In this document: positions 21,123 through 63,184 of the stretch, piece by piece
Layout of the letters: each line of letters begins with the position of its first letter
Position numbering within the stretch: position 1 is the stretch's first letter
Source: a virus
Length of the DNA stretch: 64,000 nucleotides
IMG/VR virus record: IMGVR_UViG_3300031576_000021
Span: 1-64,000 of that record
Strand: one strand, 5' to 3'
Position numbers and translations under genes: made by a program
Notes under the pieces: generated by a model
The model's database searches: none
Told to the model about the DNA's origin: nothing
Seen by the model: the letters and a program-made list of their open reading frames with translations, nothing else

Positions 21123-21338
21123 ATGAGGGCCATACGCATCGTGTCGTGTGTCTTGGTGGCGACTGGGATCGGCTGCGCCCGGCCGTTGCATCCCGACAGC
21201 GTGTCGCTGACCACGTTCCAGAGCGACGTCGCCTCGCAGAACGGCAAGACGAGCACGGGGGTGGGGGTCACGGCGACTTGGAATTTCTCGCCGGTGCCGG
21301 TGGTGATCGTCGCCCCGGTACCGAAAGCGGAGCCATGA
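21123..21338 (+). CDS. Small lipoprotein
   Basis: 71 residues. MRAIRIVSCVLVATGIGCAR is a lipoprotein signal peptide with the lipid-modified Cys at residue 18. The mature 54 residues begin RPLHPDSVSLTTFQSDV. It overlaps the next gene as ATGA. A diverged relative sits at 62225-62353 with the same PDSV-x-L-x-x-FQS motif. Its size, lipidation and position ahead of small membrane proteins would suit an outer-membrane spanin subunit, but this is unproven. Confidence 0.7.
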   Translation: MRAIRIVSCVLVATGIGCARPLHPDSVSLTTFQSDVASQNGKTSTGVGVTATWNFSPVPVVIVAPVPKAEP

Positions 21339-21739
21339 GACAGCGCTGGCGCGCGCTCCATCCCATCATCCGACTGACGGTGCTGACGCATCTCTGTTGG
21401 GCCATGCTCATTGTCGTGCAGGTGGGGCGCGGTGAGCCCATCAAGCTGATCACCGCGATGGCGTCATTCTCCGCTGCGCTCCCTAATCCCATGATGCAGG
21501 CGCTGGCGCTGAGCGGCATCGCCTTCATGGCACTCTGGGCGGGCGGCCCCGGGCGGCGGGCGTTCTGTTGGGCGCTGGGGCAGCAAGCCGTGATGACGCT
21601 CGGCTGCGTCGACATTCTCACGAGCGCGCTCACGGGGCGCTACCCCGATGGGTATGAAACGCACGGCCTCTTCATTCTCCGTGACCAGCTCCCGTGGGTG
21701 CTGCTTACGTACTACCACACCAAGGCGATGTTGCGATGA
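21335..21739 (+). CDS. Multi-pass membrane protein, holin candidate
   Basis: 134 residues, coupled to the lipoprotein stop. Hydrophobic segments lie at about 12-30, 48-68, 72-90 and 115-130, with Arg-rich loops between them (GPGRR). Position between a lipoprotein and coiled-coil membrane proteins, ahead of a peptidase, suggests a lysis role such as holin. No family motif seen. Confidence 0.6.
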   Translation: MRQRWRALHPIIRLTVLTHLCWAMLIVVQVGRGEPIKLITAMASFSAALPNPMMQALALSGIAFMALWAGGPGRRAFCWALGQQAVMTLGCVDILTSALTGRYPDGYETHGLFILRDQLPWVLLTYYHTKAMLR

Positions 21740-21778
21740 CGGACTACGCGATCTCGCGATGACGGACTACGCGATCTC
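21733..21778 (+). repeat. 23-bp tandem duplication over a start codon
   Basis: The unit GCGATGACGGACTACGCGAT plus CTC occurs twice back to back (21733-21755, 21756-21778). Each copy contains an ATG. Translation from the first copy stops after eight codons; the second copy opens the next gene. Looks like a recent slippage duplication. Confidence 0.9.
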
Positions 21779-22058
21779 GCTCCCCGCGCTCTCGTTCCTC
21801 TTCACCGTCATCGTCTCCAGCCTGACCATCTATCTTGGCCAGCGAGCAACGCGCAGTGCCCAGCGCAGCCAAGAAGAGCTGCGGCTCGACACGGCCCGCC
21901 GTGGGCATGTGGATATGCTCGAAGGACGGGTGCAGCGGTTGGAGCGCGAGAACGAACGGTTGCAGGCAGGGCATGACGAGTGCCAACGCTCGCTGGCATT
22001 GGCCCACGAGCGCATCATCACGCTGCTCAGTACCCAAGCGACGAAAGGAACAACGTGA
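21759..22058 (+). CDS. Membrane-anchored coiled-coil protein
   Basis: 99 residues from the ATG in the second repeat copy. One transmembrane helix at residues 8-27 (LPALSFLFTVIVSSLTIYLG) is followed by a charged coiled coil (VDMLEGRVQRLERENERLQ). This layout, cytoplasmic tail-TM-periplasmic coil, is that of inner-membrane spanin subunits. With the lipoprotein upstream a spanin pair is possible, but order and spacing are atypical. Confidence 0.6.
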   Translation: MTDYAISLPALSFLFTVIVSSLTIYLGQRATRSAQRSQEELRLDTARRGHVDMLEGRVQRLERENERLQAGHDECQRSLALAHERIITLLSTQATKGTT

Positions 22059-22381
22059 TGGGCGCACACCTGTCCGCATGGACCGACACGCAGAAGGCGC
22101 TGGGCAAGGTCGGCGGGGCCAGCCTGGCAACGCTTGTGCTCGCCGGCGCGCTCCAGCAGAACACGTGGGCTGTGCAGTCGCTCGAAGCAACGATCGTGCG
22201 GCAGAACGAAACGCGCGTCGAGCAGCTTGAGGAACGGCAGAAGGCGCTTGATCGGGAACGCGAAGAACGTGAGAAGCGACAACGGGAGGAACTGGCCCTG
22301 GCGAAGGACTCGACCGACACGTTGCGGCGGCTGCTCGAATTGCGCGAGGCCGAGACCGCGCGGCTAGGGGGGAGCCGATGA
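22058..22381 (+). CDS. Second membrane/coiled-coil protein
   Basis: 107 residues; ATG overlaps the upstream stop (TGATG) and follows AAGGAA. A modestly hydrophobic segment at residues 15-34 (ALGKVGGASLATLVLAGALQ) precedes a long, highly charged helix (EERQKALDREREEREKRQRE). Function unknown; probably part of the same envelope or lysis cluster. Confidence 0.6.
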   Translation: MGAHLSAWTDTQKALGKVGGASLATLVLAGALQQNTWAVQSLEATIVRQNETRVEQLEERQKALDREREEREKRQREELALAKDSTDTLRRLLELREAETARLGGSR

Positions 22382-23021: not shown

Positions 23022-24626
23022 ATGAGCGCTGCGCGGCTCATCACGATAGGAGAGCCACTCCCGCGTGGGCTTGCCGGGCTCGTCGAGCGCTTCGGCGATC
23101 CCCTGCCGTACGTCAATGACAAGCCCCGATGGGAGGCGCTGACGCTCGCGACGCGTCCATTACCAACGGCCCTCGTCTATGCGTACGGACCCCAGCGCAT
23201 CACGCGCGTGCGGGCGCATCGGCTGCTCGTCGATCATCTGGTGGAGACGCTCATGGCGTGCCTTGCCAGCGGCGTGTCGGCGGAACGGCTCGTCTACGGT
23301 GGCGCGTATTGCTGGCGAGCGAAACGTAGGGCGGAGATGCTCTCCACGCACTGCCTGGTTGGGGATTCCTTGGTCACGACGCCGGCCGGCCCGGTGCCAA
23401 TCGCCGAGCTACACGAGGGCGACTCGCTCTTTACATATCCAGCGGTCGAGACGCGCAGCGTGTCGCGCGTGTTCGCTCCGCGGCATGAGCCGACGCGCAC
23501 CATTCGCACTCGAACGCGGGCACTGACAGCCTCAGACGAGCACCCGTTCTTGGTACTCCGTGGCAATACGGTCGGAAGGGGCAAGAAGCATGATAAGCGA
23601 TACTGGACCGAGTGGGTAACGGCACAGAAGCTGCGGCTCGGTGATTGGTTGATTCTGGCGCAGCGGCTACCGACGCCATCGGCTACCGGGGAACTTGGTC
23701 CACTCGAAGCGGAGGTGATCGGCGCGTTCCTTGGTGATGGGAATGTAGTGCATCGCCGCACTGGCGTCTTGGCCGGAGTGGCCTTCTCAATTCCGGCGTC
23801 CGACGGCTATCGTGAGCGCGCCGCGGTCCTTTTGGAAGAATGCTTCAGGCTGCCGCCCCGAGTGAATGCCTACGGATTGTATTACGACCGTGCTGCGATT
23901 GCTCAATGGTTCGTAGACCGGGGCGTCGATCATCCGGCACGCGACAAATTCGTCCCCCCGGCGGTGTGGCGCGCATCGGAAGTGGCACAGTTAGCGTTCT
24001 TGCGCGGCTATATATGCACGGACGGCTGCGTGACCTCATCGGGAGGTCTGGCATTCAAGGCAGGTAGCGAACGATTGATCTGCGAAGTGCGCGCGCTGTG
24101 CCTGAGCCTCGGTTTTGGAGTCAGCAATGTGCAGGCCGAAGAGGGTGGACCACGCCTCATCAAGGGGGTCGCAACGGTATCGCGACGCCAGTGGCGTTTC
24201 TCTGCCCGCGATCGCCGCGGGGTGCTGACGCCCCTTCATCATGGTCGACATGACGCGAGACTTCTGGAGCGCCGCAGCCATCTACGGAGACATCGCCACG
24301 GCCGATCGCGTGGGCGCGGTAGCGCGTGGTTGCCGCAAGGGTTTGGCGTCGAGTCGGTTGCCGCGATTGCGGACGCAGGCCGTCGGGAGGTTTACGACCT
24401 GACAGTAGACGCAGACCACAACTTCATTGCCGAAGGGCTAGTAGTCTCGAATTGTTGGGGCATCGCAATCGATCTCGACCCGGCGAACAATCCGATGGGC
24501 ACACGTTGGCGCAACGATGGTAGCATGCTCGATGAGCGAATCATCTCGACGTTCCTGGCGCACGGCTGGTACTGGGGCGACACGTTTCGCGATCCCCAGC
24601 ACTGGCAGTTCTGTGTCGACTATTAG
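23022..24626 (+). CDS. M15-type peptidoglycan peptidase interrupted by an intein
   Basis: 534 residues from ATG 23022 (GTG 22986 is an alternative start). After removal of residues 111-477 the host protein is 167 residues, normal for phage M15/VanY-like endopeptidases. The joined sequence reads STH then CWGIAIDLDP, the zinc-site motif S-x-H-x-x-G-x-A-x-D, with H and D as metal ligands. The intein sits between that His and the next residue, so the enzyme is inactive until splicing. Context after membrane proteins and DUF1353 supports a role as endolysin. Confidence 0.8.
   Translation: MSAARLITIGEPLPRGLAGLVERFGDPLPYVNDKPRWEALTLATRPLPTALVYAYGPQRITRVRAHRLLVDHLVETLMACLASGVSAERLVYGGAYCWRAKRRAEMLSTHCLVGDSLVTTPAGPVPIAELHEGDSLFTYPAVETRSVSRVFAPRHEPTRTIRTRTRALTASDEHPFLVLRGNTVGRGKKHDKRYWTEWVTAQKLRLGDWLILAQRLPTPSATGELGPLEAEVIGAFLGDGNVVHRRTGVLAGVAFSIPASDGYRERAAVLLEECFRLPPRVNAYGLYYDRAAIAQWFVDRGVDHPARDKFVPPAVWRASEVAQLAFLRGYICTDGCVTSSGGLAFKAGSERLICEVRALCLSLGFGVSNVQAEEGGPRLIKGVATVSRRQWRFSARDRRGVLTPLHHGRHDARLLERRSHLRRHRHGRSRGRGSAWLPQGFGVESVAAIADAGRREVYDLTVDADHNFIAEGLVVSNCWGIAIDLDPANNPMGTRWRNDGSMLDERIISTFLAHGWYWGDTFRDPQHWQFCVDY
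23352..24452 (+). other. Intein with DOD homing endonuclease (367 aa)
   Basis: Begins at Cys1 (CLVGDSLVTTPAGPVPIAEL), has TxxH-type block B (TASDEHPFLV) and ends HNFIAEGLVVSN before Cys+1. LAGLIDADG motifs: VIGAFLGDGNV and LAFLRGYICTDGCV. Between about 24200 and 24340 the frame becomes Arg/His-rich, while an adjacent frame reads MVDMTRDFWSAAAIYGDIAT; two compensating frameshifts may be present. Block F and G are intact, so splicing may be retained. Confidence 0.9.
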
Positions 24627-34311: not shown

Positions 34312-34665
34312 ATGGCGATTGACCGGCTCGTCGCCGATCTCTCGCGGCTGCGCATCCGCTACCAGACGGAGCGCGAGCTACAGGAAGCGCTCGCTGAGGC
34401 GTTGCTCGAAGAAGGCTGGCCGGTCGAAGAGGAGCACGTCATCGCCGCCGGCCGCGTCGACCTCTGGTGCGACGGCATCGCCATCGAGATCAAATGCAAG
34501 GGGAGCCACGGCGAGGTGCTCCGCCAGGTGCATCGGTACGCCAGCGATCCGGCCGTGACCGGCGTGATCCTCGTGACCGACAAGCTCCAGCATGCGCGCG
34601 GCTACCCGGCGACGATGGCCGAGAAGCCGGTGCGGGTCGTGTGCCTCCTGGGCGGGATGCGATGA
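34312..34665 (+). CDS. PD-(D/E)xK superfamily nuclease
   Basis: 117 residues. An N-terminal helix with E (TERELQEALAEALLEEGW) precedes GRVDLWCDGIAIEIKCKG, the PD-(D/E)xK core with D50, E59 and K61, followed by VLRQVHRYASDPAVTGVILV as the helix and strand of the fold. Size and layout match small phage nucleases of the VRR/Hjc type. Coupled by ATGA to the intein-bearing helicase, which suggests they act together on branched DNA. Confidence 0.75.
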   Translation: MAIDRLVADLSRLRIRYQTERELQEALAEALLEEGWPVEEEHVIAAGRVDLWCDGIAIEIKCKGSHGEVLRQVHRYASDPAVTGVILVTDKLQHARGYPATMAEKPVRVVCLLGGMR

Positions 34666-37600
34666 GTGGGACAACTATAGGACAGATGGCGGATAACTGT
34701 CGGCCCGACGGTGCGCTTACCTACGTCGCCGGGAGCTGGGAAGTTACGGCACCGCCGCACATCCTGCAACGCCTGAAACGGGTGTTCGCCGGCATTCACG
34801 AGCGGAACATCCACATTGCCCGGCTCTCCGACACGCCGGCCGTCGCGTACGATCTGCAATGGTTCTTGCAGCGCCATCCGCTGACCATCTCGCGGGAGAA
34901 CAGCGCCCGGTTGACGCAGCGGGCGGCGGCCTACGCGCAGCGGCAAGAGGACGTGCAGGCCATCCTCACGCACGGGCCACGCGAGACGTTCCCGCTAGCG
35001 TTGCCGCCACGGGACTACCAGCGCGTCGCGGCCGAGCTGGTGCTGCGCACGGGTGGGTTACTCCTCAGTGACGACGTTGGCATTGGCAAAACGGCGGTGG
35101 GCATCTGTCTGCTTGTGCAGAAGGTTGCGCGGCCTGCTCTTGTGGTGACGCTCACGCACCTAACGCTCCAGTGGGCCGCTGAGATTCGGAAGTTCGCGCC
35201 ACAGCTGCGCACGCACATCGTGCGACGCGGGACGCCATATCGCATGGCCGATGCGCGTGGCGAGCCGGACGTCGTGATCATGAACTACCACAAACTCGCC
35301 GGATGGGCGGGAGCGCTGGCGCCCGTCATGCGCGCGATCGTGTTCGATGAAGTGCAAGAACTGCGGACGGGGGAGAACGCGAATGGCAACCCAGTCCAGA
35401 AGTACGTTGCGGCCAAACAGATCGCGCTGCGGTGTGCGTATCGGCTCGGACTGAGTGTTGGTCCGCGCAGCGTCGTGGAATTGCGTGGTGGACCGTTCGG
35501 GGACGGGTGGGTGGGCTCCATCGAGGATGCCTGGGGTCTGGCTCGCGACGCGGCACCGCACTTCAAATGGCGTACTGGAGGCTACGAGCTACTGACGGAG
35601 GTCGCGGCAGAATCGCGTGGATGGGACGATGCGCGCGGCGTCTTTTGCTGGAAACCCGTACGGACATTCATTCGGCATTTATGCGATCGTGGTGTGCGCG
35701 AAGTGCAGTGTGGTGGGCAGCGCTTAACGTTGACGGACGACCACGCAATCTATCGCGCAACGCAAGCCGGCTTCGAGTCTGTGAGGGCGGACGCACTCGC
35801 CCCTGGGGATATTGTGCCGGTCGACACGGGGGGCGGGTGGACGTCGGGCATGCATGAGCAGCCATTTGACGTGACGGCGCTGCACGTCGACCGCGCGCAG
35901 ATCAATGTCAACCTGTCGCGTGTCTCGCGACGCGTCGTGGGCATGCGTCCTTGGGAATGGCGGAATTGCCACACGGAGGCGACGTACGGCCCGCGGCTGC
36001 CGCTGCGGGTCTACCGGCAGCATCGTGAGCGATTCCCGGTAGTCGGGCCGGTCTATGTCGGTCGTGGTCGTGCAGCGGCGTTGCCTGCTGCCCTCCGACT
36101 GAGCGACATGGCATATGTCTTGGGATTTTATCTCGGGGACGGCTGGGTGAGCGGGCCGCGCGTATGCTTTGCGGTCGAGCAGGCTCGCGTCGCGGACTTC
36201 ACGGAGCGGCTGGAGGCGTTGCCATTCGGATTGCGTCCCAAGGTGCGCACGATGCGTGGCGCGTCGGTGGAAATTCGCTGCACGCACGTACTCCTTGCTG
36301 AAGTGCTTCGGCAGGTCGTGCCCGGCCGCTGCTATGACAAGGCCATTCCGGCGGAATGGATCATGACGTGGCCGGAAGCGGCGCGACGCGAGTTGGCGCG
36401 TGGGTTGGTTGATTCGGATGGCCATGTGTCGCGACCCGGACGGCGGTGGGGCGCAGCCTACTCCACGACGTCATCCATCCTAGCCATGGGGTTCATGACG
36501 CTGCTGCGCAGCCTCGGCGTTCGGCCCGGCCTGCATGTGCGCATTCCCATGGATGGAGGAGTGATCGATGGTCGACAGATTCGCGGGCGCCGCGTGAGCT
36601 ACCAGGTGTATTGGAGTTGGGCCGCGTTTGTCGGTGCGCATGGCCGATACGTCGGGCATCGTTACCGGCACGGCTCGCGGCTGACGTTTAACGAAGCGCG
36701 CGTCTCGGGATCGCACAGTGTGCCGCCACCGCGGTACGTCTATGACCTGGAAATGGATGGGCACCCGTCGTTCGTTGCGAACGGGTTGCTTGTGCACAAT
36801 TCGGCCACCCCATTCTACAACTACGGCGGCGAGCTGTGGAACGTCTTGAACGTCCTACAGCCGGGCTGCCTCGGCTCACGCCTGGAGTTCGACATCGCCT
36901 ACACGACGCGCGTCGGCAACGGCAAGACGGCGATCCGCGAGCCGCGCGCCTTCGGCACGTTCCTCCGCAGCGAGGGGATCATGCTCCGGCGCACGCGCGA
37001 AGACGTCGGCCGCGAGCTGCCGCCCGTGATTCGCATCCCGCACGTCATCGAGGCCGATGCGTCGGTCCTCGACAAGATCAAGACCAGTGCGGCCGAGCTG
37101 GCGCGAATCATTCTGGGAGCGAGCGAGCAATTCCGTGGGCAGAAGATGCAAGCAGCGGAGGAACTGTCGAGCCAGCTACGACAGCATACGGGGCTGGCAA
37201 AGGCCCCCTTTGTGGCTGCCTTCGTCCGCATGCTGGTCGAGCAGGGCGAGCAAGTCGTGCTCTTTGGATGGCACCATGCCTGCTACAGTCTCTGGCGAGA
37301 ATTACTCACGCCGTGCGGCGTGGTCTTCTACACGGGAGCGCAGTCCGTCCCGCAGAGGGAAGAGGCCCGCAAGACGTTTCTCGACGGCACGGCCAAAGTG
37401 CTGGTCATGTCGCTGCGGGCTGGCGCTGGTCTCGACGGATTGCAAGGTGCCTGCCGCACGGTCGTCTTCGGCGAGCTGGACTGGAGCCCGGGGGCCATGG
37501 AGCAGTGCCTCTCGGGAGATACCGAGATCCTGACGCCAGACGGATTCCGTGGACCGGACGACATCTCCGTCGGCGATCTGGTCTGTGGCTTCGAGCCAAG

Positions 37601-38945
37601 CACCGGCTCGATGCGATGGGTGCCGGCGCAGGCTAAGACCGACCGGCAGCGCGGACCAACGGAGCGCATGTACGCAACCGCCACCGAAAAGATCGACGTC
37701 CGCGTAACCGAAGACCACCAGATGTTGGTACGACGACAGCAGCGCACAACGCACGGGGTGCGCCGGTCCACATGGGCATTCTCGACCGCCCGTGACGTTG
37801 CCAACAGGCACCGTCGATATATCCCGACCTGTGGACAGCAAAACGCGGCCGGCGTGCCGTTAACAGCACATGAACTCCGGCTGATTGGGTGGTTCCTGTC
37901 TGACGGCAACCTGAATCTCCATTCACGCACGCTCACAATTTATCAGGCCGCCCACCAGCCGTGGAACGCTAACATCATCGACACGCTGGACGGATGTGGC
38001 CTTAAGTGGTCGCGATTCCAACGAACCAGCCCGAAAGGGACGTTGATGAACTGGTACATGGTGCCGCGCGGGACGTTGAGGCCCTGGTCACGACGAGACA
38101 CGATCACGATGCGCGACATGCTGGCCGATGGGGCAACCTATACCACGATCGCTGCGGCGCTCGGGCGTTCGGCTGCGGCGATTGGAAAGAAGGCAAGGCG
38201 CGTGGATTCCTGGCATCGTGGCGCAGAGCGCGTGGGCCGTGGCTGGGATCATCTGGGCGAATATCTCGACAAAGATTTGAGCCCCAGACTTGAGTTGGCG
38301 ACCTCTGAGCAGTTGGAGCACCTCATCGAAGGGATACATCTCGGAGATGGGAGCAAGAACGACAAGCACGTGCGGCGGATCTACAGCATCAACAAGCGAT
38401 TCCTTGACCGCCTCCAGTCGCTCTGCGTGCGACGCGGGCTCTCGGCGCATATCTCTCCTCCGCGCGGTGGCGGCAAACCAATCTATACGATCTTCATTTC
38501 ACGCAGCGCAGATGCCGTGCTCCCGCGCGGCGTAAAGCCAAATGCATTCGGGATCGTATCCAGCAGTCCCAGTGAGCGAGTCTGGTGCGTGACGAACGCT
38601 CTTGGCACGCTGGTTACACGGCGCCACGGAAAGGTCGCGATCGTCGGCAACTGTGTGGGGCGTGTGCATCGTGATGGGCAGGCCGAACCCGTACGGGCGT
38701 TCTTCCTCTACGCCGAAACCGGGTCCGATCCGATCATGATCGACGTGCTCGGCGTCAAGCGGCAGCAGATCGAGAACGTGCGGGACCCCGACGCCGATTT
38801 CATCGAGAAGCTAGAGGTGTCGGGCGACCACGTCCGGCGGCTGGCCGAGGCGTATCTGGCGGGACTTGACACAAGGGCCGCAATAGGCCATAACGGACCC
38901 AAAGCGGCGCCACGGAGCGCCATGGTGGCTGCACGGAAGGTATGA
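34662..38945 (+). CDS. SNF2-family helicase carrying two inteins
   Basis: 1427 residues; 596 without inteins. Walker [13 protein letters not shown] (133-144) and motif [10 protein letters not shown] lie in the first part. Intein 1 (residues 265-713) splits motif III: YRLGL joins [14 protein letters not shown]. Intein 2 (949-1330) splits motif VI: GAMEQ joins [13 protein letters not shown]. Both sites lie in the ATPase core, so function depends on two splicing events. The C-terminal tail ([12 protein letters not shown]) is disordered. Paralog of the SNF2 gene at 29090. Coupled to a nuclease upstream; the next gene overlaps its stop. Confidence 0.9.
35454..36800 (+). other. Intein 1 of the SNF2 helicase (449 aa, Ser1)
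   Basis: Starts with Ser ([13 protein letters not shown]) rather than Cys, with block [12 protein letters not shown] endonuclease motifs are [12 protein letters not shown] and [12 protein letters not shown]. Block [21 protein letters not shown] ends in HN before Ser+1 of SATP. All splicing residues appear intact. Confidence 0.9.
37506..38651 (+). other. Intein 2 of the SNF2 helicase (382 aa)
   Basis: Starts [20 protein letters not shown], with block [12 protein letters not shown] motifs [11 protein letters not shown] and [12 protein letters not shown] flank an inserted HTH-like helix pair ([20 protein letters not shown]). Ends VAIVGN before Cys+1; the usual penultimate His is Gly, as known in some phage inteins. 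Confidence 0.88.
38866..38894 (+). promoter_or_regulatory. Sigma70-type promoter inside the helicase end
   Basis: TTGACA (38866-38871), 17-nt spacer, CATAAC (38889-38894). It lies within the last codons of the helicase gene and would drive 38942 onward with a leader of about 40 nt that includes GGAAGG. Shares the TTGACACAA extension. Confidence 0.55.
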
Positions 38946-53374: not shown

Positions 53375-53418
53375 GGTGCTGTCCTACTTAGGACACTCCC
53401 GCATCGAAATTAGGACAG
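53375..53418. repeat. Internal copy of element end sequences
   Basis: GGTGCTGTCCTA recurs at 53375-53386, within the 16-bp inverted repeat TGTCCTACTTAGGACA (53380-53395). A second TAGGACA follows at 53411-53417. The arrangement TTAGGACACT, eleven bases, TTAGGACAG recurs in the same orientation at 55075-55105. The transposase stop lies inside this block. Confidence 0.75.
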
Positions 53419-54375
53419 TCCCCCCTTGATGACCCGCAAGTGGTTCGGGCGCGGTCCTCGCGGCCCGCGGAAGCTCCCCCGCCGCTCGCCCTTCGCCTGC
53501 GCGGCGGTGGACCCTGCCGGGATCGGCGCGGGCGCAGTCGGCTCCGGTGCCTCGAACGCGGCGTGCAGTAGCTCGGCGATCGACCACACGTGATCCGTCA
53601 GGCCCGCCTCCATGGCGGGAGTACACCGCAGCGTCTCGTGGACGCGGCAGAAGTTGAAGTGGGCGACGAACAGCCCCACGGCTGCTTCCAGGTTCCGCAG
53701 CCGCTTCGAATGCGAGATGGTCAACCGGGCGAAGCGCTTGAGCGACACGCGCACCGACAGATTCAGCCGCTCGCTGTAGGACGTGCTGATTTCCCCCCAG
53801 GCCGGATCGCCCAACACGGCAGTCTTGGTCACGCGACTGATCTTGCCGGGCGAGTAGCGCAACGCGGCCTGCTGCGCCTGGGGCACCGTGTAGTCCTTGT
53901 CCACGGTGCCGAAATCCACGTCGGCGCCGAAGTGCCGCGAGATGGCCTCGGGGTAGCCGTTCCATGCGTCGGTGCTGATCTGCGGACGGCCCAGCACCCG
54001 CAACCGGAGGTCCTGCGCGAACGCGTCGGCGTTGTCGCCCGTGCGCTTCCCGACCCGGTACGAGAGAATGAGCTTGGACACCGCGTCCATGGCGAGAAAG
54101 ACGTACTGGTCGCCGTACTCCCTCGGGTCGTCCTGCCGAAGCCGGCGCTGCTTCTTCTGCACGAACGTCCATAGCTCGTCGGCCTGGATGAGCGTCGCGC
54201 GCACGTCCCGCACGCGGGCATCGTGCAGCCGGGCGCACGCTTCGCCCACCGTGACGCCCAGCCGCATGATCGTGTCCCGGTGGACATCGAGCAGCCGCTC
54301 GGCCGCCCGAATGCTCACGCCGTCCACGAGGGCTGCGGCGACTTGGGCTTTCTTCTCAAATGGCAGCGTGTGCAT
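53410..54375 (-). CDS. IS1-family DDE transposase
   Basis: 321 residues from MHTLPFEKKAQVAAALVDGV, the usual start of this group; the frame is open for 58 more codons upstream but those overlap operator sites. N-terminal HTH (SIRAAERLLDVHRDTIMRLG), then catalytic D66 (IQADELWTFVQKKQRR), D136 (ISTDAWNGY) and E202 (STSYSERLNLSVR). The C-terminal HFNFCRVHETLRCTPAMEAG is typical. It cuts and joins element ends. Divergent from the gene at 54451; both probably share the operators between them. Confidence 0.9.
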   Translation of the reverse strand: MHTLPFEKKAQVAAALVDGVSIRAAERLLDVHRDTIMRLGVTVGEACARLHDARVRDVRATLIQADELWTFVQKKQRRLRQDDPREYGDQYVFLAMDAVSKLILSYRVGKRTGDNADAFAQDLRLRVLGRPQISTDAWNGYPEAISRHFGADVDFGTVDKDYTVPQAQQAALRYSPGKISRVTKTAVLGDPAWGEISTSYSERLNLSVRVSLKRFARLTISHSKRLRNLEAAVGLFVAHFNFCRVHETLRCTPAMEAGLTDHVWSIAELLHAAFEAPEPTAPAPIPAGSTAAQAKGERRGSFRGPRGPRPNHLRVIKGGLS

Positions 54376-54382
54376 GGGGACA

Positions 54383-54444
54383 TTTGTAGCTACAAACGCG
54401 CCACAAGTCAAGGGGTGGACTTCACGCCCATTTGTCGCTACAAA
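54383..54444. promoter_or_regulatory. Paired palindromic operators
   Basis: TTTGTAGCTACAAA (54383-54396) is a perfect 14-bp palindrome; TTTGTCGCTACAAA (54431-54444) is the same with one change. They lie 48 bases apart in the gap between divergent genes, where a small repressor would control both. Confidence 0.7.
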
Positions 54445-54450
54445 CGGTTC

Positions 54451-54624
54451 ATGCCACGTCGCAAGGTCAAGGCCGAACGTAAGGAAGCGGTTGTCCGGTT
54501 GCGGGTGACGGAGGAACAGCGCCGCATGTTGTTCGCGGCAGCCCAGCACGCCGGGTTGGAGTTGAGCGCCTGGTTGCGTTCACTTGGGTTGCGGGAGGCC
54601 CGCCGAATCGAATCGTCCGCGTAG
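54451..54624 (+). CDS. Ribbon-helix-helix-like small protein
   Basis: 57 residues. MPRRKVKAERKEAVVRLRVT is a basic arm and strand, followed by EEQRRMLFAAAQHAGLELSA and a second helix WLRSLGLREARR, the plan of MobC/ParD-like RHH repressors. It starts seven bases after the second palindrome, so it probably represses itself and the transposase. Confidence 0.65.
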   Translation: MPRRKVKAERKEAVVRLRVTEEQRRMLFAAAQHAGLELSAWLRSLGLREARRIESSA

Positions 54625-54778: not shown

Positions 54779-54870
54779 GGCGAGGTGTGTGAGCCAGGTT
54801 GAAACAGTCGGACTCAAAATCCGGTGAGCGCTTACCCGCTCCGTCCGTTCGAATCGGACCCTCGCCGCCA
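54779..54870 (+). tRNA. tRNA-Leu (CAA)
   Basis: Full class II cloverleaf: acceptor GGCGAGG/CCTCGCC, 3-bp D stem TGT/ACA, anticodon stem TCGGA/TCCGG with loop CTCAAAA (anticodon CAA, 54815-54817), long variable arm GAGCG/CGCTC, T arm GTCCG-TTCGAAT-CGGAC, discriminator G and encoded CCA. Reads TTG codons. It lies inside the insertion element, so it is probably host-derived cargo rather than a native phage tRNA. Confidence 0.92.
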
Positions 54871-59078: not shown

Positions 59079-59248
59079 TGGACGTGGTGGGGCTACTACT
59101 GTTGATCGCGGTCGGCTTCGCGCTTGGTGCGCTGCTATCGACCTTTGGGTTTCAAGCTATCCATAAGCACGGGCACTACGGCCACACGCGCTGCGCGGAG
59201 TGTAGCCGGAGAGGTGGACCCAGAAGAGCGAAAGGGGAACGGTCATGA
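59078..59248 (+). CDS. 56-residue membrane peptide with CxxC
   Basis: MDVVGLLLLIAVGFALGALL is one transmembrane helix; CAECSRRGG and a His cluster (HKHGHYGH) follow. The ATG overlaps the stop of the gene before and its stop overlaps the ATG of the next. Unknown function, could bind metal. Confidence 0.5.
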   Translation: MDVVGLLLLIAVGFALGALLSTFGFQAIHKHGHYGHTRCAECSRRGGPRRAKGERS

Positions 59249-61173
59249 CGAACAAGCGGTGGACAGTGGAGCGGTGGACAGTAGTCGAAGTGCTCGTGGT
59301 GGTGCTGACCGTGGCCGCAGTCTGTCTCTTGCTCGGACGCTCGGCGTTTGCGGCCACACGCCTTGTCGACGGCGCCTGCGCTACCTCGGGGTCAGGGGCG
59401 GGCCGTGTCTGCGGAACGGCAGGACCCTTCCGCACGATCGCCGAGGGCGTGCTTGCCATGCAGCCAGGCGACACCCTGGCGATGCGCGGGGCGCACGACG
59501 GCTTCGACGGCGTGTACTACGAACCCGTCACGCTGCGCGGCGGCGGCCTCCCTGGGAAGGCGCTGGTCTGTACCGCTGCCCAGCGCTGCCTCATCACGAG
59601 CTGCGCGCCGCCGGACTGCCCGACGGCCGAGCACGCCACGGTGCGCGTCATGGAGTCGCTCACGGAATGGGCGCCCTATCCGGGCTTCCCAGGCGCCTAC
59701 GGCCAAGCGACTACGGTTGCCACGGATCTCGACGCGAACGACGTGCGCGACTCCCGCGCGGGTGATCCCCGGATGGTCATGCAGCGGAGCGGCGACACCT
59801 TCGTCCCGCTCGCCTACGCGGGGGACGGAATGATCCCTGGCGACGGCCGCTGGTCGTTCACGGCCGATGGGACGCATGTCGTCACGGTCAACCCGATCGG
59901 TGACGCCCCGATCGCCGATGTGTTCGTGCCACGCTACAGCTACGGCGTGCTGCTCGGGGCACCGTCCGCGCATGTCACGCTGCGGAACTTTACCGTCCAG
60001 GGGCCGCGACATGTCGGCATCCAGTCCTATGCAAGCCCCCCTGGCATGACCGGGCTCGTGATCGAGGACGTGACGGTGCAGTTCTTTCCCCGCCACGGCA
60101 TCCGCACGACGAACGGGGCCATCGCGCCCGTGATCCGACGCGTCCGCGTCGAGCAGGGCTGCCGCGGCCTGTCCTGGGCGCTCTCGACGGGCGATGGCTG
60201 CTTCGGCTACCGGCTGTTCTCGATCCACGGTGGGCAGGTGACGGAGAACTACGCTGGCCATCTTGGGAGCGCCGGCCGTATCCGGCTCTCGAACCCGACG
60301 AACCCGACCGGCTCGCCCTGGCCCTGTCCCTGGTGCGATCTGCCGTGGAACACGACCGGCGCGACGGAAGTCTCGACGACGGGCGTCGCCTTCAACGTGA
60401 AGCAAACGGGTTTGGTCGGTGCCGACGGCGTCTCGGCGCTCTCGGAGACGCTCGTCGAGGGCAACCGCGTCGAGGATATTTCCTTCGCCGCGTTCTCGAT
60501 CGACACGGCGTTCGGTGTGCGCGTGCGCGGCAACGTGATCTTTCGCGCCCGCATGGGGATGACGCAGGACGTGTTCACGCCGAGCGGGCAGTGGCAGCAG
60601 GCGTACGACAATACCTACGAGTGGAGCCAGATCGAAGATGCCGAGATCGGGTTCAGCGTACAGGACACGCCGGTTCCTGCCGGCCATCGGCTTGCGCAAT
60701 TCGGTCCTGACAATCTGTTCATCCGCACGGGGACGCCCTGGCGGCCGTTGCCGAGCGGCGTCCTCGTCGTCGGCGAAAACCGGGTGCAGGACGGTCCGGC
60801 CACCACGTCGAGTACATCGTCCAGCACGAGCACGAGCAGTACGAGCCTCCCACCAACGACCACGAGCAGTAGCTCCTCGTCGTCCAGTAGCACGTCAACC
60901 AGCAGCTCGTCTTCTTCGACGAGTAGCAGTAGCTCGTCGTCCTCGTCGAGCACCAGTAGCAGCACCAGCTCGACGGCTCCCCCGACCACGTTGCCGCCGA
61001 CAACCACCACGCTTCAGCCCACGCCCACGACGACGCTGCCCTGTCGCACACTGAATCAGCGGTGCACCAAGGACGGCCCGGATCGCCTCTGCTGCGCTAC
61101 GACCCTCAAGGGTGTGCCGCTGGAGTGCCGCGGACGGGCGCTGACCGCGACGTGCCACAAGGTGCAATCATAA
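59245..61173 (+). CDS. Exported beta-helix protein with Ser/Thr tail
   Basis: 642 residues. Signal peptide up to about residue 36 (VLVVVLTVAAVCLLLGRSAF), then a right-handed beta-helix-like body (VTLRNFTVQGPRHVGIQSYA, VRVRGNVIFRARMGMTQDV), a Ser/Thr/Pro tail from about 518 to 592 and a Cys-rich end (CRTLNQRCTKDGPDRLCCAT). The body aligns block by block with the second half of 16243-20301 (GDGCFGYRLFSIHGGQVTEN against GDGGFGFRAFILNGGEARRN). Probably a secreted surface protein; function not known. Confidence 0.75.
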   Translation: MTNKRWTVERWTVVEVLVVVLTVAAVCLLLGRSAFAATRLVDGACATSGSGAGRVCGTAGPFRTIAEGVLAMQPGDTLAMRGAHDGFDGVYYEPVTLRGGGLPGKALVCTAAQRCLITSCAPPDCPTAEHATVRVMESLTEWAPYPGFPGAYGQATTVATDLDANDVRDSRAGDPRMVMQRSGDTFVPLAYAGDGMIPGDGRWSFTADGTHVVTVNPIGDAPIADVFVPRYSYGVLLGAPSAHVTLRNFTVQGPRHVGIQSYASPPGMTGLVIEDVTVQFFPRHGIRTTNGAIAPVIRRVRVEQGCRGLSWALSTGDGCFGYRLFSIHGGQVTENYAGHLGSAGRIRLSNPTNPTGSPWPCPWCDLPWNTTGATEVSTTGVAFNVKQTGLVGADGVSALSETLVEGNRVEDISFAAFSIDTAFGVRVRGNVIFRARMGMTQDVFTPSGQWQQAYDNTYEWSQIEDAEIGFSVQDTPVPAGHRLAQFGPDNLFIRTGTPWRPLPSGVLVVGENRVQDGPATTSSTSSSTSTSSTSLPPTTTSSSSSSSSSTSTSSSSSSTSSSSSSSSSSTSSSTSSTAPPTTLPPTTTTLQPTPTTTLPCRTLNQRCTKDGPDRLCCATTLKGVPLECRGRALTATCHKVQS

Positions 61174-62295: not shown

Positions 62296-62353
62296 CGTGC
62301 CGCTCTCCATGTTTCAGAGTGGTATGGCCTTTCAGGACGGCCACACGAGGTAA
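62225..62353 (+). CDS. Small lipoprotein, paralog of 21123-21338
   Basis: 42 residues from TTG 62225 (ATG 62183 in frame would add 14). LRPRVALVMLSAIGVCQRPF has a lipobox ending at Cys16, then YPDSVPLSMFQSGMAFQDGH, matching HPDSVSLTTFQSDVASQNGK of the first copy. It is shorter at the C-terminus. It precedes a membrane protein, as the first copy does. Confidence 0.6.
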   Translation: MRPRVALVMLSAIGVCQRPFYPDSVPLSMFQSGMAFQDGHTR

Positions 62354-62355
62354 TA

Positions 62356-62904
62356 ATGACGCTGTTCAACGGCACTTTGCGCGCCTTCTCTCTCGCCATT
62401 CTCTCCGCGGTGATGCTCGCCCTCGGTATTGCGCTCCTCCAATGGGCACTTGACGTGGGGCCGTGGCGCGAATTGATGCCGCACTACGTGTGCTGGCAAG
62501 AGCGCACCGGGCTGATTTGGACGACCGCTGTGGCGGATTGCGCGATCTGGGTCGCGTACTGGAGCTTTCCGCTACAGATCGCTTGGCTCACGCGGTTCGG
62601 CCACCTGCCCTTTCCGGGGCTCATGTGGATGATCGGCACCTTCGTGATGGCGTGCGGGGCCACTCATGCGATGGATCTGTGGACGATCTGGACGCCGACC
62701 TATTATGCCGCGGCCGTCGTCAAGATGCTCACCGCGATCGTCTCGCTGACGTGCGTCGGTGTCACGGCGGTCGGCATCGGCTCTCTCGGGCGGCAGCGGC
62801 CGGAGACCGCGGCGCGGCTGCGCCGACTCGCAGAACGTGTTCGAGAGGTGGATCCCGATGCGGCGGCGATCCTAGACCAGTTGGCGCGGAGCTTCCATGC
62901 CTGA
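62356..62904 (+). CDS. Membrane protein with ETR1-like ethylene/copper-binding domain
   Basis: 182 residues. Hydrophobic helices at about 8-30, 54-78, 86-107 and 115-141. The second holds D61, Y68 and P72 in the spacing of Arabidopsis ETR1 D25, Y32 and P36; the third holds V97, C100 and H104 in MACGATHAMDLW, matching ETR1 I62, C65 and H69 (CGATHLINLW). C65 and H69 bind the Cu(I) that binds ethylene. No kinase or GAF domain follows; the end is a charged helix (RQRPETAARLRRLAERVREV). Overlaps the next gene by 8 bases. Ligand and role here are inference. Confidence 0.8.
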   Translation: MTLFNGTLRAFSLAILSAVMLALGIALLQWALDVGPWRELMPHYVCWQERTGLIWTTAVADCAIWVAYWSFPLQIAWLTRFGHLPFPGLMWMIGTFVMACGATHAMDLWTIWTPTYYAAAVVKMLTAIVSLTCVGVTAVGIGSLGRQRPETAARLRRLAERVREVDPDAAAILDQLARSFHA

Positions 62905-63184
62905 CGTGACGGCACAGGATGGCGTCGTGAACGCGCTGCACACGCTCGCGCAGCAGGTCGCCATTATGAACGAACGGCAGATAGCGTCGCAACGGACGCT
63001 CGACATGATCGTGCAGGTTGTGCAGGGGGCGCCCAACATTCCAGGGAGTGGGTTGACGGAACGGCTTGCTCGCGTCGAATCAAGCCAGGGCTACCATTGG
63101 TCGTTCGCTGGTGCGTTCATGACAGCGGTATTCACGCTTGCAGGTGTTCTGGGCGCTTCCCTGCTTGCGGGGCTGGCGCGCTGA
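62897..63184 (+). CDS. Helical protein with C-terminal membrane anchor
   Basis: 95 residues. Coiled coil (VNALHTLAQQVAIMNERQIA, TERLARVESSQGYH) then a membrane helix near the end (FMTAVFTLAGVLGASLLAGL). Start lies inside the ETR1-like gene. Looks like a class III holin or membrane adapter; may be a partner of the ETR1-like protein. Confidence 0.55.
   Translation: MPDVTAQDGVVNALHTLAQQVAIMNERQIASQRTLDMIVQVVQGAPNIPGSGLTERLARVESSQGYHWSFAGAFMTAVFTLAGVLGASLLAGLAR

Follow-up and report, generated by a model that had tools for sequence, protein, structure and literature searches.

A stand-alone ethylene-receptor domain encoded by phages, with a coiled-coil membrane partner and a possible role in lysis

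The g69 gene and its ETR1_N domain

The gene considered here, g69, lies in a 64,000-base window (the whole stretch of DNA that was analysed), which corresponds to bases 1-64000 of the 88,217-bp IMG/VR virus record IMGVR_UViG_3300031576_000021. An earlier note on this DNA had described its product as a phage-encoded, stand-alone ethylene-receptor-like domain, a description that is borne out by a match to the ETR1_N profile and by many phage relatives. The features of the locus are as follows.

62347-62350, plus strand: GAGG, a probable ribosome-binding site 5 nt ahead of the g69 start codon (sequence)
62356-62904, plus strand: g69, a stand-alone ETR1_N membrane protein of 182 amino acids (open reading frame; Pfam PF25487, E = 1.4e-22)
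62512-62763, plus strand: match to the ETR1_N profile, residues 53-136 of g69 (Pfam)
62536-62571, plus strand: codons of D61, Y68, F71 and P72 of g69, equivalent to D25, Y32, I35 and P36 of ETR1 (alignments and residue counts)
62644-62667, plus strand: codons of V97, C100 and H104 of g69, equivalent to I62, C65 and H69 of ETR1, with the CGATH motif (alignments and residue counts)
62897-63184, plus strand: g70, 95 amino acids, an N-terminal coiled-coil-like part and one C-terminal transmembrane (TM) segment (open reading frame; GGAG upstream of the ATG)

In plants, fungi and bacteria, ethylene receptors have ETR1_N as their input domain. The g69 frame runs from an ATG start to a TGA stop with a coding score on a par with that of the neighbouring genes, and its product scores 80.2 bits against the Pfam ETR1_N profile (cut-off 27), which makes its membership of the family, as judged from sequence, practically certain. 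Among plasmid-borne bacterial ETR1_N sensor proteins the best tblastn hit has E = 8e-13. When g69 is aligned with eight plasmid-borne bacterial sensors, PHxxC (residues 42-46), D61, Y68, P72, CGxxH and WxPxY (W112-P114-Y116) are conserved, the PHxxC loop being a feature in common with bacterial members of the family. The protein has an extra N-terminal hydrophobic helix (residues 10-28), core helices at about 51-80, 87-112 and 116-140, and a charged C-terminal helix. An AF2 model places the helices in the expected order, with a predicted local distance difference test score (pLDDT) of 84.6. Foldseek gave no significant match for g69 in the PDB or BFVD, a result that is uninformative for the PDB, where a sequence-profile search found no ETR1_N relative.

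Seven residues are required for ethylene in ETR1: D25, Y32, I35, P36, I62, C65 and H69. Five of them are identical in g69 (D61, Y68, P72, C100 and H104), with I35 replaced by F71 and I62 by V97. The earlier note had read these five residues, their spacing (D+7=Y, D+11=P, C+4=H) and the Val at C-3 correctly, all of which we found in the sequence; it had overlooked the Phe at the position of Ile35, so that identity stands at five of seven positions. The number of required residues is taken from PMC11819568, and Asp25, Cys65 and His69 are the copper ligands of ETR1 (PMC12643061). The D-x6-Y-x3-P and C-x3-H spacing and the order of the helices are those of plant ETR1, SynEtr1 and AzoEtr1 (PF25487). 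Unlike ethylene receptors, g69 has no GAF, PAS or kinase domain, possesses the extra N-terminal helix and the Phe and Val substitutions, is accompanied by a coiled-coil membrane partner and is encoded by a phage. No signalling output is attached to it: the frame stops 46 residues past ETR1_N and holds no second Pfam domain.

Stand-alone relatives in other phages

When g69 alone was used to scan IMG/VR and GTDB, no match was obtained, the sequence being too divergent. IMG/VR was also scanned with patterns built on conserved codons, which yielded 13 contigs, then five more that were confirmed and two more that were usable, some of them near-copies. Besides g69, 17 further distinct stand-alone ETR1_N proteins were obtained in this way, most of them on clear phage contigs carrying hallmarks such as terminase (L048 and L050), tail proteins (L035, L046 and L202) and endolysins. 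All 18 proteins of this phage set match Pfam ETR1_N at E<=0.001, and g69 is 21-30% identical to the other members. Two contigs may be something other than phages: L013, of 350 kb with bacterial-like neighbours, and L014, which has a replication gene of plasmid type. We dropped L042 and L044, which fit the pattern and not the ETR1_N profile, and did not retain L015, a complete ETR1_N kinase from a contig of 279 kb, or L201, which is frameshifted in bacterial-looking surroundings.

With g69 as the query, INPHARED gave no phage relative, its only match (Burkholderia phage Paku, E=9, inside the terminase) being due to chance. Two other proteins of the phage set used as queries recovered Maribacter phages Molly_1 to 5 and Colly_1. 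Molly_1 gp065 matches ETR1_N with E=1.5e-16 and is annotated only as a ‘hypothetical protein’, as is its Colly_1 counterpart gp063. Both resemble g69 in having ETR1_N as the sole recognised domain and an overlapping TM and coiled-coil neighbour, and differ from it in having an endolysin directly downstream, an Asn at the Asp position and a longer C-terminal region. No PHROG match at E<=0.01 was found for g69 or 15 relatives; g69 did match families of unknown function, though weakly. We found no published phage example of an ethylene-receptor domain in the open-access full-text literature, nor, among the top-ranked papers of a wider search, any that links the receptor to prophages or holins, an absence that is not proof.

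The earlier note held that in known cases the domain is fused to an output. This is true of bacteria: among 114 ETR1_N frames in GTDB genomes, 93 are closed, and 91 of these extend at least 150 residues past the Cys. In phages the stand-alone form is the rule. Short and long frames number 17 and 1 in the viral set compared with 2 and 91 in the bacterial set (P = 7e-17, for sets that come from slightly different patterns and rows that share ancestry), and the only true kinase among the viral matches is that of L015.

In the alignment of the 18 phage proteins C46, Y68, C100, H104 and Y116 are invariant, C100, H104 and Y116 being contained in most of the search patterns. A pattern drawn from the N-terminal half only, and thus without the Cys and His, still gave C-x3-H in 11 of 11 phage matches once L015 and L201 were removed. 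Position 61 is Asp in nine of the 18 proteins, Asn in five and His in four, compared with Asp in 109 of the 114 bacterial frames. As far as these alignments indicate, the Cys/His pair is under constraint and the Asp has relaxed to other possible ligands, a combination that would be more in keeping with retained metal binding than with uniform ethylene sensing. We consider it quite likely that the metal site is retained. Half of the phage proteins have Asn or His in place of the Asp ligand, which speaks against strict ethylene sensing by the set as a whole; ethylene appears improbable as the physiological ligand.

These substitutions also bear on the possibility that g69 and its partner are a true small-molecule sensor, which would detect ethylene (or Cu(I), O2 or redox state), signal through the cytoplasmic coiled coil of the partner and control a phage behaviour other than lysis. 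Such a sensor would account for the D, Y, P, C and H kept in g69, among them the equivalents of the Asp25/Cys65/His69 copper site of ETR1 (PMC12643061). Moreover, an isolated domain can bind ethylene, since AzoEtr1(1-130) from Azospirillum does so as a kinase-less glutathione S-transferase (GST) fusion in yeast (PMC11819568). Yet nine of the 18 phage proteins depart from Asp, compared with five exceptions among 114 bacterial frames, no output domain is recognised, and both I35 and I62 are replaced in g69; we regard this explanation as unlikely.

In a tree of 128 rows the phage sequences do not form one clade: at least four label changes are needed to fit the well-supported branches, and a single change occurs in 0 of 200 bootstrap trees. 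The alignment is short and the phage branches are long, and we rely on the non-monophyly of the phages rather than on any single placement. Since the phage set is not one clade, the domain was probably captured from bacterial sensor proteins several times. Such captures, made from different bacterial groups, could track hosts, as might be expected of a host-signalling decoy, in which the phage domain would form mixed dimers with host ETR1_N kinases and silence or redirect their signalling, its proximity to lysis genes reflecting incidental placement in a late operon. Receptors of the ETR1 family do work as dimers (PMC12643061), and, as bacterial ETR1_N proteins are mostly long sensors, a truncated one is a plausible dominant negative. 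A decoy would, however, be expected to stay close to its host partner, whereas divergence is high within the phage set.

The coiled-coil partner and the neighbouring lysis genes

The coupling of g69 to a coiled-coil membrane protein, as proposed in the earlier note, is real: g70 overlaps g69 by 8 nt. Most relatives have, adjoining the domain gene and typically overlapping it by 4 nt, a short gene for a protein with a single TM segment and a coiled coil. Under a strict automatic rule, such a gene lies immediately downstream in 7 of 15 loci, compared with 15 of 374 other genes (4%; P about 8e-7). The charges flanking the TM segment would mostly place the coil of the partner in the cytoplasm, on the same side as the predicted tail of the domain protein. 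The PHROG family matched by g70 (phrog_9869, E=0.0088) is of unknown function, and no family match is significant.

Partners of the g70 type resemble XhlA-type and Rz-type lysis proteins in their short length, single TM segment and coiled coil, and in lying in late regions, with lysis genes adjacent in some relatives; the partner in L033 gives weak PHROG matches to Rz-like spanin. We nevertheless rejected a spanin role, since in most partners the positive charges lie C-terminal of the TM segment, a pattern that would make the coil cytoplasmic, unlike that of an i-spanin.

An endolysin lies <=2.5 kb from the ETR1_N gene in five lineages. In Molly_1, gp064 (TM and coiled coil) overlaps gp065 (ETR1_N) by 4 nt, and gp065 is followed after a 3-nt gap by the endolysin gp066 (Amidase_3, E=2.8e-13); Colly has the same gene order. 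The paper on Molly lists the amidase and no holin, and notes proteins with one to four transmembrane domains (TMDs) beside lysins (PMC8776804); there is no holin annotation anywhere in the Molly_1 record. In L036 the ETR1_N gene is followed by a coiled-coil and TM gene with a 4-nt overlap and then by a lysozyme fragment. This lysozyme (L036:6851-7279) appears to be split into two short frames, through either a real frameshift or a sequencing error. The endolysin lies downstream of the domain gene by 0.9 kb in L037 (a lysozyme), by 1.6 kb in L030 (phrog_465, E=1.2e-10) and by 2.4 kb in L025 (GH25). Two adjacent small proteins, PAS-like as judged from their sequence, are encoded between the module and the GH25 endolysin (L025:248-1307), which adds more sensor-like pieces to the surroundings of a phage lysis gene.

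This gene order again bears on the decoy, as the constant companion of the domain is a phage TM and coiled-coil gene and, in Molly, L036 and L037, an endolysin, not an early gene; on balance we find a decoy quite unlikely. A comparison with holins is more instructive. In the model class I holin, S105 of lambda, three TMDs are arranged N-out/C-in, and the protein accumulates as dimers (PMC10865782). The phage ETR1_N proteins are likewise small, with a predicted three-helix core, a charged, putatively cytoplasmic tail and, in several relatives, an endolysin neighbour. Unlike a class I holin, g69 has no PHROG holin similarity, carries the conserved Cys/His/Tyr site and lies away from the endolysin.

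The phage carrying g69 and a possible role in lysis

A 124-bp repeat is present at both ends of the record, so the 88-kb genome looks complete, and the tape-measure protein, portal and weak HK97-type capsid match that it encodes mark a tailed phage; the record is thus probably a complete tailed phage genome. Its endolysin gene and the small genes beside it are as follows.

21335-22381, plus strand: g16-g18, small membrane proteins beside the endolysin (BLASTP matches of g16)
23022-24626, plus strand: g20, an M15 peptidase endolysin interrupted by an intein (Pfam Peptidase_M15_4, Intein_splicing and LAGLIDADG_3)

The recognised lysis enzyme of this phage, g20, is 38 kb from g69. One of the small membrane proteins beside it, g16, matches in BLASTP the product of the next gene after ETR1_N in L034 (E=2e-9) and L031 (E=1e-7).

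Together with the LAGLIDADG endonuclease intein of g20 the phage has three inteins, the others being in an SNF2-type helicase (window 34662-38945) and in a 994-residue protein in the terminase position (genome 74740-77724, L003:6441-9422). Two secreted-looking proteins (window 59245-61173 and genome 63462-64289) end in short Cys-rich tails that bear a CC pair and are preceded by Ser/Thr-rich linkers; they could be host-derived surface or extracellular modules. A gene on the minus strand (53410-54549) gives a borderline match to an IS1-like transposase and lies beside a tRNA-Leu (CAA) gene (54779-54870).

g69 itself sits in a run of short accessory genes. None of 18 capsid relatives (44-61% identity) has the gene, which makes it accessory, and no counterpart of g70 or g16 was found in them either. 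A small membrane protein in such a setting might be an envelope moron, which would sequester copper or exclude superinfecting phages with no link to lysis. This would leave the recurrent endolysin and coiled-coil neighbours unexplained, and we consider it quite unlikely.

We favour the explanation that a captured sensor domain has been put to new use: as part of a two-gene membrane module it would form the lysis hole or control it, acting as a holin or holin regulator. We give this explanation a probability of about 0.5 (our graded confidence figures are judgements, not computed values). The options raised in the earlier note included a lysis function for the fold. This is now the best supported of them through the gene order of the relatives, while the g69 locus itself gives no such support. 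A role in lysis is plausible, and weakest for the phage of g69, because its endolysin is 38 kb away.

Several observations weigh against a role in lysis. The endolysin of this phage has its own small membrane genes (g16-g18) beside it, and g69 is absent from the capsid relatives. In L048 and L049 the ETR1_N gene lies between terminase and portal, and on several contigs no recognised endolysin was found near it. No PHROG holin family matches the domain protein, and the late regions of phages often contain small TM and coiled-coil genes. A three-helix core and charged tails are predicted across the phage set, but g69 has a fourth hydrophobic segment, and Molly gp065 carries about 150 additional C-terminal residues. 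Finally, the Cys/His conservation is, for most matches, partly built into the search patterns. As for the distance between g69 and g20, other phages have been proposed to carry holin-like genes in operons of their own, at a distance from the lysin (PMC9671378).

If the module does act in lysis, a bacterial ethylene-receptor sensor domain would have been captured without its kinase and, together with a co-translated TM and coiled-coil partner, would form a two-gene module in the inner membrane. With its charged tail predicted to be cytoplasmic, and as a member of a family known to dimerise, g69 would act as the holin or as a subunit that sets the time at which the holin fires. The coiled coil of the partner, on the same cytoplasmic side, would be its regulator or its output. 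The Cys/His metal site, probably for Cu(I) as in ETR1, would have been kept for one of two reasons: a bound metal could lend stability to the helix bundle, or it could let copper, redox state or a small gas influence triggering. We are more tentative about a bolder form of this proposal, and think it rather unlikely. In it, phages would have taken up the ethylene-receptor domain time and again as a lysis device loaded with metal, a metallo-holin or metal-gated holin regulator with a coiled-coil partner; its firing would depend on Cu(I) and perhaps also on ethylene, oxygen or redox state.

The recurrence in phages of a free-standing ETR1_N domain, in some of them beside an endolysin, points to a new use of this fold, possibly as a timer of lysis that responds to copper, redox state or a gas. 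The cultured phages Molly and Colly, which have the ETR1_N and endolysin arrangement and no recognised holin, make this readily testable. The small single-domain phage versions may also help to solve the structure of ETR1_N.
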